Source of the DNA: Acidimicrobiia bacterium
Lineage (GTDB): Bacteria > Actinomycetota > Acidimicrobiia > IMCC26256 > PALSA-555
Reading direction: 5' to 3'
NCBI GenBank assembly: GCA_040881685.1
Contig: JBBECS010000045.1
Location: 1 to 64,000 of the forward strand
Length of the DNA stretch: 64,000 bases
Of the stretch, positions 43,946 to 48,782 are shown in pieces (position 1 is the stretch's first letter; the number at the start of each line of letters is the position of its first letter). Both the position numbers and the translations under genes were made by a program. Under the pieces are notes generated by a model that saw only the letters and a program-made list of their open reading frames with translations, did no database searches and had not been told where the DNA came from.

Positions 43946-44060
43946 ACCGTACCTGGCGATCGACACCACGCCGACGAAGCGACCTGTTGCTCGACATGCG
44001 CGTCTACCCAACCTGATCGAGCACGAGAGGCTCAGGGTGAAGCCGTAGAGTCTCGAACCC

Positions 44061-44723
44061 GTGGCGTCAAAGAGACGTGGGATTCTCTCCTGGCTCGCTG
44101 GTGCATTCCCTGCCACGCGGCAGCGCAGAAGGCGGATCGTCGACTACGCCCGCGCGTGGGAAGCAGCGAACGAACGCGTCGGCACCGAGACCGGGCCCTT
44201 GTGGGTGGTCCTTGGCGACTCCACCGCACAGGCCATCGGTGCTGACAGCTACGACCACGGATACGTCGGGCAGGTACTGGACGCCCTCCGCCGCCACGAT
44301 GGGCGCGTCTGGCGCGCGGTGAACTTGTCGCAGAGCGGGGCGTTGGCCATCGACGTGGTGGAGGAGCAGCTTCCTGGCCTCGATCAGATCGGTGCTCCAG
44401 ACCTCGTGTCGTGCGCGGTCGGGAGCAACGACCTCCTCCGGCGCACGACGACCTTCGAAGCAGCGCTGGCAGAGATCGCGCGGGCCTTGCCCGTGGGAGC
44501 TCTGTTGGCCAACCTTCCCCGCGGGCTTCGGGAACGGCGCGCGCAACAAGTCAACGGCTACATCGAGCGCGTCGCCCGTGAACACCGCCTCCGGCTCGTC
44601 GACCTCTGGTCGACCACTGGCCCACCGTGGGGCGACAAGTTCTCGGCCGACCGGTTTCATCCCAACGAAGTCGGCTATCGAGATTGGACAACGGCATTCT
44701 GCGCCGCGCTGGGGATCAAGTAG
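44061..44723 (+). CDS. SGNH/GDSL-type hydrolase
   Basis: The 220 residues carry the four blocks of SGNH esterases: LGDST (nucleophile Ser), NLSQSGA (Gly), VGSNDLL (Asn) and DRFHPNEVGY (Asp-His). There is no signal peptide; an N-terminal basic stretch (KRRGILSWLAG) might associate with the membrane. It probably cleaves an acyl ester. GTG 44061. Confidence 0.9.
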   Translation: MASKRRGILSWLAGAFPATRQRRRRIVDYARAWEAANERVGTETGPLWVVLGDSTAQAIGADSYDHGYVGQVLDALRRHDGRVWRAVNLSQSGALAIDVVEEQLPGLDQIGAPDLVSCAVGSNDLLRRTTTFEAALAEIARALPVGALLANLPRGLRERRAQQVNGYIERVAREHRLRLVDLWSTTGPPWGDKFSADRFHPNEVGYRDWTTAFCAALGIK

Positions 44724-44903
44724 CGGTGCGTTTGCCGGCTCGGTAGATGGCGAAAGTGGCGAGTGGATGGACAAAGTTCAGACGTCGTATCAATGAACAG
44801 ATCGAATCCCGCACGAGGGCACGACTCCCCCTGTCGCCGCCACGGTGACAGGGTTCGCTGCGTAGCATGGAGGCCGCTTCCGACGCCTCGAGGTGCCTAC
44901 GTC

Positions 44904-47900
44904 GTGCCCGCGCTCCCTCTCGTCCTCTGCATCGACGTCGAGCCGGATCGTCGCGTCACCGAGCGTGGTGACCGGCAGCGGCCGCGTGGGGCCGACCTCC
45001 TCCTCCCACTCGTGCCGCGACTCCGTGACCACCTGGCCGCGCTCTCGGGTGGCGACGCGCACCTGACCTGGTGCCTGCGGATGGATCCGCAAATCCGCGA
45101 CACGTACGGATCGGCCGACTGGCTCGCAACGGCGTACGAGCGCGAGCTCGAGGCGCAGCAGCGGGCGGGCGACGAGCTCGGGCTTCACCCCCACAGCTGG
45201 CGGTGGCGCGACGGCGACTGGGTGTCCGACCAAGCTGATGAGTCATGGGTCGCGCACTGCGTGGACGTCGGCCTCGAGACGTTCCGATCGACCTTCGGCC
45301 GTGACACTCAGGTGTACCGCCACGGCGACGGGTACATGTCGAATGCGATCGCGCGCCAGATCGAGCATGCCGGTGTCCGGGTGGACCACACACTCGAGCC
45401 GGGAAAAGTCGCGCGGCCCGGCATCACGGCAAGCGAAGCCTCCACCGGCATGCTGCCCGACACCCGCGCGGTGCCGCACCATGCGTATCGGCCGTCGCAT
45501 GCTGACTTCCGCGTGGCCGACACTGGGAAGCAGTCGGGGACGCTGTTCCTACCGCTGACCGCCGGGATGATCGTGAAGACCGGACATCGCGGCGGACGCT
45601 TGGTGCCGACCGGCAGCTACGAGATACTCGAGCTCTGGAGCGACCCGACCCGGTTCGCGCGCATGCTGCGGGTGACGCTGCGCGATCCTGAGCTCACGCA
45701 CCTGGCGTTCGGCCTGCGCACCGACATCGGGTTGCTGCCGTCGGCCTTCGCCAACGTGGAGCGCAACGTCGAGGCGATCAGCCGCCAGCTCGATGGCAAC
45801 GAGCACCAATGGTGCACGGCAGCGGCCGCGGCCGTGCACATCGAGTCCGCGGGCGTGGCGCCGGCTCCGCTGCGTGCCGAGCCAGACCGAGCACGCGCCA
45901 CGCTCTGGCTCGAGGGCACGGCCGATGCCGGATACCGAGCGGGTGCGGAAGCCGAAGCGCTCGAGACGCTGATGGATGACGGGGGGGCCCTTGGCGAGCG
46001 CCTGCGCTCGCTGGGCGCGGACGCGCCGAGCGACGCGCTCGCGGCACCGAGGCCCGGCGCCGCCCTCCACGGAGAGCCCGTAAAGCACGAACGACCCGCC
46101 GTGCGATGGGTCGACGAACCCGGGGCGGTGTCGTGTCCGCTGTGCGGCCATGCGGGGCGAGCCCGGCGGATGGCGATGGCGCGCTGGGGTCACGAGGAGA
46201 TCGGCGTGGTGCGGTGCCCGGCATGCCGCGCGGTGGTGCCCGAGCGGGTCGGCGCGATGGTCGACATGCCGGACGAGATGATCGACGGCCACCTGGAGTT
46301 CACGGCCGGTGTCGACGCGGTGCTCGTCACCATGAGTCGCGTCGAGCCGCGCCGAGACCTGCACTTCCTCGACGTCGGCTGCGGTTACGGCTTCGCCCTC
46401 GATCTCGCGCGCTTCGCTTGGGGATGGCGTGGCGTGGGCGTCGACCCCTCCAACTGGGCGCTACGCGGTCAACGCGAGCTCGGCGTGGACATCCGCGCCG
46501 GGCAGTTCGACGCGTCGCTCGACGTCGGCGACGAGCCGTTCGATGTCGCGATCGCGTCGGAGGCCCTCGAGCACATCCATCAGCCGTTGGCCATGCTCGA
46601 AACCATCCGACTCCGCCTCGCGGACGACGGCGTGCTCGTGCTGTCGACACCGAACGCCGACTTCATCCGTCCCGGCAACTCGCTCCGCGACGTCGCCGCC
46701 GCGCTCGGCAGCGGCGGTCACGTGTTCCTCGCATCGGCTGATGGTCTCAAGCAGGTCCTGCGCCGCGCCGGCTTCGGAGCCGTGATCGTCGATGAGGACG
46801 TGCAGACGCTTCGGGCCATTGCCTCGCCGACGCAGGCCGGCCTTGACGCGTGCCGCGACGCGCCGAAGCCACTAGACCTCGGCCTCCTCGCGCGCTATTG
46901 CGACGAGCGCGCGTCGTCGGCGGCACCCGACTCCGCGCTGCGTCTGGGCATGGCCGCGCGGAACGTGCAATACGCGCTGCACGCCAACGACCTTGCCGCG
47001 GCCGAATCCGGGTACCCACGCTTGCGCCAGGCGTTGCTCGACCGGCACGGGATCGACGTCGAGACGCCCTCAGAGACGATCGAGCGCGCAGTGGACGGCG
47101 CCCTTCCTGCCGTCGCCGCCAGTGCGCACTTCAGCACCGGGTTCCTCGACCTGGTCGCGCGCGGTCAGCCGGCGCGTGCGGCGGAGCAGTTCGCCGCCGC
47201 GGCGGTGGCCGCTGGTTCAGCGTCGGCGGGGCGCGATCCCGGGATCGTCTGGCTCCAGCTCCGCGCCATCGGTCATGAAGCGCTCGCCCATGCTCGGATC
47301 ACGCCGGAACGCGTTCCCGACGCGCTCGTCCGGCTCCGGAACGCGAGCCGCGATCTGATCGGAGCCGAAGCGCGCGAGGTGGACGAGCTCTGCGCACAGG
47401 CGTTCCGCGAGCTCGTCGTTGGCGAGCAGTTCGACGCGGCCGACGCGGCTCGGATGCTCGTGAGCCTGCCCGACGCCTGGATCCATGAGGAGTCGGCTGA
47501 TGGCCGCACCGCGCTCGACACCGTGTACTCGCTGGGGATGCTCGCCCTGCAGCGCGAGCGGGCCGCGGAAGCCGCGGCGTACTTCGGGCTGTGCGCACGC
47601 CTCGCCGCTGACTTCGATGCCGACGCCGACCGCGACCTCGCCACGCGTGCGAGGGCCCACGAGATCATGGCGCTCGAGATGCTCCGGCACGTCCCGGTCG
47701 CGGAAGCGGATCCGCTCGTCCCACGCCAGGCGTCGGTCGCCACGTCGACGGTTCGGCCGCCGACGCGTGCCGCGAGAGCAGGCATGAAGCTCGGCGTGAG
47801 CGTGGTCATCCCGCTCTTCAACGGAAAGGGGTTCCTCCGCGAGGCGGTCGAGAGCGTCGTGGCCCAGACCGTGACGCCCGACGAACTCGTCGTCGTCGAC

Positions 47901-48782
47901 GACGGCTCCTCCGACGACGGCCACGAATCGATCGACGACATCGACGCGCCGTTCCCCATCCGCGTCATACGGCAGATCCATGGCGGGCAGTCGGTGGCGC
48001 GCAACCGCGGGGTGGCGGCGACGAGCGGTGAGCTCGTCGCTTTCCTCGACCAGGACGACACGTGGCACCCCGAGCATCTCGCCCGGCTGACCGCGCCGCT
48101 CATCGATGACCCCATGGTCGGCTGGGTCTACAGCGACTTCGACGAGATCGACGCCGAGGGCCGGACCGTGATCCGTTCGTTCCTGGCCGAGCACGGAGTC
48201 GCGCACCCCCGCACCACCCTCGCCGGATGCATTGCCGAGGACCTCATGGTGATCCCGTCGGCGAGCGTCGTGCGCCGTTCCATGTTCGAGACCATCGGCG
48301 GCTTCGATGTGCTGCTCCAGGGCTTCGAGGACGACGACCTCTACGTTCGTGCCTTCCGCGCCGGATGGCGGCTGGAGTTCCTTGCACGATCGCTCACGCG
48401 GTTCCGCGTGCACGCGACGAGCTCGTCCGCCCAGAGCCGATTCAACGAGAGCCGTCGCTACTTCAGCCAGAAGCTGTGCACGACCGTCGCGGACGACCGC
48501 CGTCTCAACCGCTACTACTCGCGAGACGTCATCGCGCCGCGCTTCCTGCGTGCCGCCCTCAACGACTATGTGCGAGCGGTCTCAGAAAAGGATTGGACCA
48601 ATGCCAAGCGCATTGCTGACGACATGAGGTACTTCGCGAGCTTCCATCGTGATCGCGGGTCCCTGCGCTGGAGGCTGCTGTTGCTCCGCGGCCCGCGCAT
48701 GGCACGGCGGCTTCTCCGGCTGAACGCGCTTGTACCCATCCGGTCTCGCCGCATGCGCGACCCGGTGCTCCGCCTCCGCTAA
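44904..48782 (+). CDS. Three-domain fusion: deacetylase-like, methyltransferase and GT2 glycosyltransferase
   Basis: GTG 44904 (after GAGGTG) gives about 1292 residues. Residues 1-320 resemble a NodB-type polysaccharide deacetylase: LCIDVEPD, GLHPHSW and YRHGDGYMS supply likely metal-binding Asp/His residues. A zinc ribbon (CPLCG ... CPAC, about 410-440) leads into a class I methyltransferase with DVGCGYGF near 489 and ASEALEHIHQPL. A helical, TPR-like region spans about 660-960. The C-terminus is a family 2 glycosyltransferase starting SVVIPLFNGKGFLREAVESV near 965, with VVVDDGSSDD and LDQDDTW. It is probably involved in making and modifying a surface glycan. An upstream ATG at 44763 adds residues without domain resemblance. 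Confidence 0.85.
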   Translation: MPALPLVLCIDVEPDRRVTERGDRQRPRGADLLLPLVPRLRDHLAALSGGDAHLTWCLRMDPQIRDTYGSADWLATAYERELEAQQRAGDELGLHPHSWRWRDGDWVSDQADESWVAHCVDVGLETFRSTFGRDTQVYRHGDGYMSNAIARQIEHAGVRVDHTLEPGKVARPGITASEASTGMLPDTRAVPHHAYRPSHADFRVADTGKQSGTLFLPLTAGMIVKTGHRGGRLVPTGSYEILELWSDPTRFARMLRVTLRDPELTHLAFGLRTDIGLLPSAFANVERNVEAISRQLDGNEHQWCTAAAAAVHIESAGVAPAPLRAEPDRARATLWLEGTADAGYRAGAEAEALETLMDDGGALGERLRSLGADAPSDALAAPRPGAALHGEPVKHERPAVRWVDEPGAVSCPLCGHAGRARRMAMARWGHEEIGVVRCPACRAVVPERVGAMVDMPDEMIDGHLEFTAGVDAVLVTMSRVEPRRDLHFLDVGCGYGFALDLARFAWGWRGVGVDPSNWALRGQRELGVDIRAGQFDASLDVGDEPFDVAIASEALEHIHQPLAMLETIRLRLADDGVLVLSTPNADFIRPGNSLRDVAAALGSGGHVFLASADGLKQVLRRAGFGAVIVDEDVQTLRAIASPTQAGLDACRDAPKPLDLGLLARYCDERASSAAPDSALRLGMAARNVQYALHANDLAAAESGYPRLRQALLDRHGIDVETPSETIERAVDGALPAVAASAHFSTGFLDLVARGQPARAAEQFAAAAVAAGSASAGRDPGIVWLQLRAIGHEALAHARITPERVPDALVRLRNASRDLIGAEAREVDELCAQAFRELVVGEQFDAADAARMLVSLPDAWIHEESADGRTALDTVYSLGMLALQRERAAEAAAYFGLCARLAADFDADADRDLATRARAHEIMALEMLRHVPVAEADPLVPRQASVATSTVRPPTRAARAGMKLGVSVVIPLFNGKGFLREAVESVVAQTVTPDELVVVDDGSSDDGHESIDDIDAPFPIRVIRQIHGGQSVARNRGVAATSGELVAFLDQDDTWHPEHLARLTAPLIDDPMVGWVYSDFDEIDAEGRTVIRSFLAEHGVAHPRTTLAGCIAEDLMVIPSASVVRRSMFETIGGFDVLLQGFEDDDLYVRAFRAGWRLEFLARSLTRFRVHATSSSAQSRFNESRRYFSQKLCTTVADDRRLNRYYSRDVIAPRFLRAALNDYVRAVSEKDWTNAKRIADDMRYFASFHRDRGSLRWRLLLLRGPRMARRLLRLNALVPIRSRRMRDPVLRLR

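Follow-up and report, generated by a model that had tools for sequence, protein, structure and literature searches.

In the window, the 64,000 nucleotides of DNA that were analysed, one uninterrupted open reading frame on the forward strand, from 44904 to 48782, codes for 1292 amino acids followed by a stop. From the N- to the C-terminus the protein is made up of a divergent NodB-like domain (D1), a single module comprising a zinc ribbon, a class I methyltransferase and a TPR-like helical tail, and a soluble family 2 glycosyltransferase (GT2). We lean, by a little, towards a lineage-specific gene fusion that gives one cytoplasmic multifunctional enzyme, which would extend a lipid-linked rhamnose-type glycan and tailor or cap it, with deacylation by D1 included. 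As a three-module protein it is a genuine but modest novelty, a new combination of known kinds of module, and, within what was searched, its precise set of modules and its D1 subfamily seem to be new. The features of the gene are as follows.

44904..48782, + strand: whole fusion gene, with a GTG start
44904..45938, + strand: D1, residues 1-345, divergent NodB-like domain of the deacetylase superfamily (profile-profile match to PF01522 relatives)
44934..44948, + strand: D1 motif D-V-E-P-D, residues 11-15, in place of the NodB TFDD (alignments, by eye; outside the local profile match)
45186..45194, + strand: D1 motif H-P-H, residues 95-97, in place of the NodB H-(S/T)-x-x-H (alignments; aligned with deacetylase motif 2)
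45315..45332, + strand: D1 motif Y-R-H-G-D-G, residues 138-143, in place of the NodB R-P-P-Y-G (alignments)
46134..46226, + strand: zinc ribbon, C-x2-C ... C-x2-C, residues 411-441 (none of its cysteines varies in an alignment of the window protein with five relatives)
46350..46775, + strand: class I SAM-dependent methyltransferase, Methyltransf_23, residues 483-624 (Pfam, E 7e-23)
46881..47723, + strand: all-helical TPR-like tail, residues about 660-940 (weak; structure prediction and fold matches)
47784..47786, + strand: in-frame ATG at the exact start of the glycosyltransferase (MKLGVSVVIPLF), which may mark where a separate gene once started, or may start translation internally
47799..48437, + strand: family 2 glycosyltransferase of GT-A fold, residues 966-1178 (Pfam; relatives of known structure; motifs VVVDDGSSDD, DQDD and GFEDDDLYVR)
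48438..48779, + strand: basic C-terminal region of the glycosyltransferase (hydropathy; 55% identity to a same-genus relative up to the end)

The gene had been placed at 44904-48782 by the sequence-only reading, with three catalytic folds, a zinc ribbon and a helical domain in one frame of about 1290 residues. The coordinates are correct, the frame being open with coding-type G+C by codon position, and the list of domains was borne out by Pfam, alignments, profile-profile comparison and structure prediction. The open stretch with a start codon begins already at 44763, upstream of the GTG. A GAGG, read by eye, lies about 10 bases 5′ of the GTG at 44904, stand-alone relatives start near the same point, and the third-position G+C is 0.80-0.91, as in coding DNA, from just past the GTG over both linkers to the end of the gene. 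Promoter and terminator scans gave no match. A GDSL-type hydrolase gene, a possible esterase partner, lies on the same strand at 44049-44720, around 180 bases 5′ of the fusion start.

No match to D1 was found in Pfam, nor any credible one for its five aligned relatives. Single-sequence structure prediction gave no usable model (pLDDT 34), and a profile search of the PDB returned weak matches only (E about 0.2), peptidoglycan deacetylases among them. When a profile of eight D1 sequences was compared with one of 25 PF01522 sequences from related genomes, the two matched with a probability of 92% and a score of 53.9 across 81 columns that take in motifs 2 and 3, against 19.1 for the best of 60 column-permuted controls, 15.3 for a reversed alignment and 18.5 for D1 with the unrelated middle module. 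In this match GhEIxxH of deacetylase motif 2 falls on GDELGLHPH of D1, and FRPPxG of motif 3 on YRHGDG. Most likely, D1 is a divergent member of the NodB-like superfamily, for which catalysis is predicted at most. The earlier description "deacetylase-like" would thus seem apt for the likely superfamily, deacetylase activity itself being putative.

The metal triad Asp-His-His, with the H-(S/T)-x-x-H of NodB and the CE4 enzymes, was not found in D1 in the alignments. In the full-length relatives the canonical H-x3-H is replaced by H-x-H and motif 1 is D-x-E. The first of these changes, along with R-H-G-D-G for R-P-P-Y-G, the absence of a Pfam match and an aspartate that varies among relatives (the first of motif 1, which is Asn in the same-family genome G011), could mean that D1 is a degenerate, non-catalytic domain for glycan binding or scaffolding, in which case the protein would be a methyltransferase-glycosyltransferase only. 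We regard this as quite possible but somewhat doubtful: the glutamate of motif 1 and both histidines of H-x-H are kept across the full-length relatives, beyond what neutral decay would leave, and stand-alone copies of D1 exist. A bolder proposal, which strikes us as rather unlikely, would have D1 found a new family of carbohydrate esterases whose metal site, D-x-E / H-x-H, is non-canonical, and would make the fusion a single assembly line for one end of the glycan, where sugar transfer is coupled to deacylation and to capping by methyl. Two relatives of D1 (L060:8366-9757 and L061:7186-8496) carry an extra domain of around 100 residues, with a motif of GWVWD / GGWAYD type, inserted after the NodB-like core and ahead of the C-terminal part.

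In the middle module, the methyltransferase matches the class I profile and its glycine-rich motif I, LDVGCGYGF, is conserved in the six-sequence alignment. The tail is predicted to be all-helical with hairpins at modest confidence (mean pLDDT 52, but about 75 for the hairpins at its end), and the structural matches that it gave, all weak, include TPR domains. Relatives align over much of this tail. Of these, Azospirillum WP_247873784.1 and Aminobacter WP_192320256.1 are homologous along the module, including much of the tail, at 29-30% identity; they differ in being unfused genes next to rhamnan-synthesis or glycosyltransferase genes. Weak profile matches to TcaB9-type antibiotic-pathway sugar methyltransferases run from inside the zinc ribbon into the methyltransferase. 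Enzymes of TcaB9 type, which are sugar C-methyltransferases, have a zinc-binding N-domain ahead of the methyltransferase and a Rossmann-like C-domain after it. A zinc-ribbon sugar C-methyltransferase of this type was considered and rejected; the ribbon and the methyltransferase are present, but the C-terminal part is predicted, with modest confidence, to be all-helical.

The glycosyltransferase matches Pfam Glycos_transf_2 over residues 966-1130 (E 3.8e-28). With a GT-A profile and intact DxD-type and ED motifs it belongs to GT2, and it resembles GT2 enzymes of known structure, such as chondroitin synthase and PglI-type relatives. A hydropathy scan found no transmembrane segment in the fusion protein, including the C-terminal region of the glycosyltransferase. 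When the whole protein was used as the query in a scan of the genome collection, only distant glycosyltransferases were recovered. The ATG at 47784 lies exactly at the start of the glycosyltransferase, in frame and after a weak purine-rich stretch (GAGAGCAGG), as would be expected if an internal start also gave a free glycosyltransferase and the locus had two products. This would seem unlikely; a same-genus fusion of D1 to the glycosyltransferase has no methionine there, and the ATG may be a mere scar.

This same-genus fusion, in genome G002, has D1 and the glycosyltransferase in one frame with a short linker and without the middle module, the two parts being 46% and 55% identical to those of the window; its N-terminus is cut by the end of the contig. 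Beside it (L021:3057-4974) are, by eye, genes for a HipA-type kinase and a MazF-type toxin, surroundings unlike those in the window. In G011, of the same family, D1 and the glycosyltransferase are adjacent, convergent and separate genes. D1 was found in eight of 395 genomes of the class, this one included, and the middle module in five; only here are the two in one frame. The middle module also stands alone in five genomes (G001, G002, G003, G011 and, as a paralogue, the window's own, G000), and in the four of these that belong to the same genus the stand-alone copy has a conserved neighbourhood. No further triple fusion was found in a wider sample of the phylum, and D1 was not found on plasmids. 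The simplest history, as far as it can be read from the sequences, would be that D1 and the glycosyltransferase fused first and that the methyltransferase module was later inserted in their linker.

The assembly is of metagenome type, and the exact three-part order occurs here only while relatives have separate genes, so a join of separate genes by assembly error has to be considered. It is highly improbable. As D1 and the glycosyltransferase are already fused in the same genus, a misjoin would have had to keep the frame on either side of the inserted middle module, which makes two independent events. A search for repeats flanking the junctions gave short imperfect matches only, with no long or exact repeat, and the third-position G+C is continuous over the junctions. 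The identity between the middle module and its paralogue is only about 40%, too low for a collapsed copy, and the flanking DNA is 72-84% identical to same-genus genomes. On balance we take the fusion to be real. Separate genes in relatives had been named beforehand as what would point to an assembly fusion; the modules do occur separately, but this is no sign of an assembly error because the same-genus two-module fusion suggests a stepwise history.

The combination had also been thought unfamiliar as a named enzyme. This holds for the exact three-part form, which was not found elsewhere among the 395 genomes of the class or in the phylum sample, and for which a literature search gave no matching protein. 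For the kind of protein it was not borne out, since fusions of a methyltransferase or of NodB to a glycosyltransferase are known and there are other three-module glycan enzymes in the same order. With a Pfam methyltransferase and a Pfam glycosyltransferase in one chain, the protein can be likened by domain make-up to WsaE of Geobacillus stearothermophilus, a methyltransferase-glycosyltransferase chain from a rhamnan pathway with Wzm/Wzt (PMC2943079), and to ORF6 of Klebsiella pneumoniae O7, in which a methyltransferase, a helical spacer and then a glycosyltransferase lie in one chain (PMC11231755). WsaE is likewise a soluble single polypeptide with both kinds of module; it differs in having two glycosyltransferases and an N-terminal methyltransferase, and no deacetylase-like domain (PMC2943079). 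ORF6 shares the order methyltransferase-spacer-glycosyltransferase, though its spacer is a coiled coil rather than TPR-like, it has two glycosyltransferases and it lacks a NodB-like domain. A TPR-like bundle is found in the Klebsiella O4 terminator (PMC11231755).

MatB of Streptomyces, an N-terminal NodB fused to a C-terminal GT2 (PMC4391728), shares with the fusion the layout of its two ends. It differs in that its NodB domain is recognisable, its glycosyltransferase is a PgaC-like synthase and no methyltransferase lies between them. A deacetylase-GT2 fusion of MatB type was ruled out for the window protein, as D1 is non-canonical and the chain has no transmembrane segment. In two genomes of the same order there are open reading frames (L090:2946-7988 and L091:3662-7084, 1681 and 1141 amino acids) in which a GH18 domain, a polysaccharide deacetylase and a GT2 follow one another. 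These also have three glycan modules in a long chain with the deacetylase before the GT2; they differ in that the deacetylase is a canonical PF01522 domain and in having a chitinase-type GH18 instead of the methyltransferase module. A different fusion, of Methyltransf_23 to GT2 in around 500 amino acids, occurs in two same-genus genomes (L024:5858-7360 and L025:9121-10623, 98% identical), in a cluster that holds the stand-alone middle module.

It had been proposed from the sequence that the protein builds and decorates a surface sugar, and the clusters in which relatives of the modules lie lend this support, being of rhamnose/ABC-exporter, rhamnan and O-antigen type. The paralogue of the middle module in the same genome lies between an rmlA-like nucleotidyltransferase gene and rmlB/rmlD-like genes, with an ABC-2 permease (Wzm) and an ATPase with a Wzt_C domain (Wzt) 6-8 kb away; the exporter genes are in this cluster and not at the fusion locus itself. 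The rml genes and Wzm/Wzt are the typical set for a rhamnose glycan exported by an ABC transporter, in which the C-terminal domain of Wzt reads the end of the glycan. The Azospirillum homologues of the middle module adjoin rhamnan-synthesis-F genes and glycosyltransferases, and the Aminobacter one is around 1.2 kb from a glycosyltransferase 39% identical to that in the window. A D1 profile had no match among the open reading frames around these methyltransferases. A conserved partner gene lies beside both (L096:6713-7810 and L098:4854-5807); it is annotated as hypothetical or as a class I methyltransferase and seems to consist of a small N-terminal domain followed by a methyltransferase. The D1 of genome G639 is in an O-antigen-type cluster that also codes for an O-antigen ligase, glycosyltransferases, a methyltransferase and a UDP-GlcNAc 2-epimerase.

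Points against the reading favoured here are the absence of canonical NodB motifs from D1 and the position of the fusion, whose neighbours in the window are the GDSL hydrolase, a methyltransferase, an adenosine deaminase and a two-component pair, with no glycan cluster. Such neighbours, together with the weak TcaB9-type matches of the methyltransferase module, might instead point to a small molecule, a secondary metabolite, as the substrate of glycosylation and methylation in place of a surface glycan. We think this distinctly improbable, as the relatives that lie in recognisable pathways are mostly in polysaccharide clusters.

In the favoured reading, a multifunctional enzyme of surface-glycan synthesis, the GT2 would work in the cytoplasm and extend by a sugar a lipid-linked glycan that probably contains rhamnose. 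The zinc-ribbon methyltransferase would methylate the added sugar, most likely as a decoration or as a cap that ends the chain, while the TPR-like tail might serve as a spacer or a docking surface. D1 may strip this glycan of an acetyl group or of a related N- or O-linked acyl group. The continuity of the gene, the identity of its domains, the separate or partly fused forms in relatives and the sugar clusters around those relatives were observed; the substrates, the order of the reactions, the capping and the catalysis by D1 are what we infer from the modules and their relatives.

Within one bacterial family, a tailoring enzyme is seen as separate genes, as a two-module fusion and as a three-module fusion, and these stepwise forms are useful for studying how glycan assembly lines arise. 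D1 is a small, rare family with unusual motifs and no Pfam model, and it could define a new kind of deacetylase.
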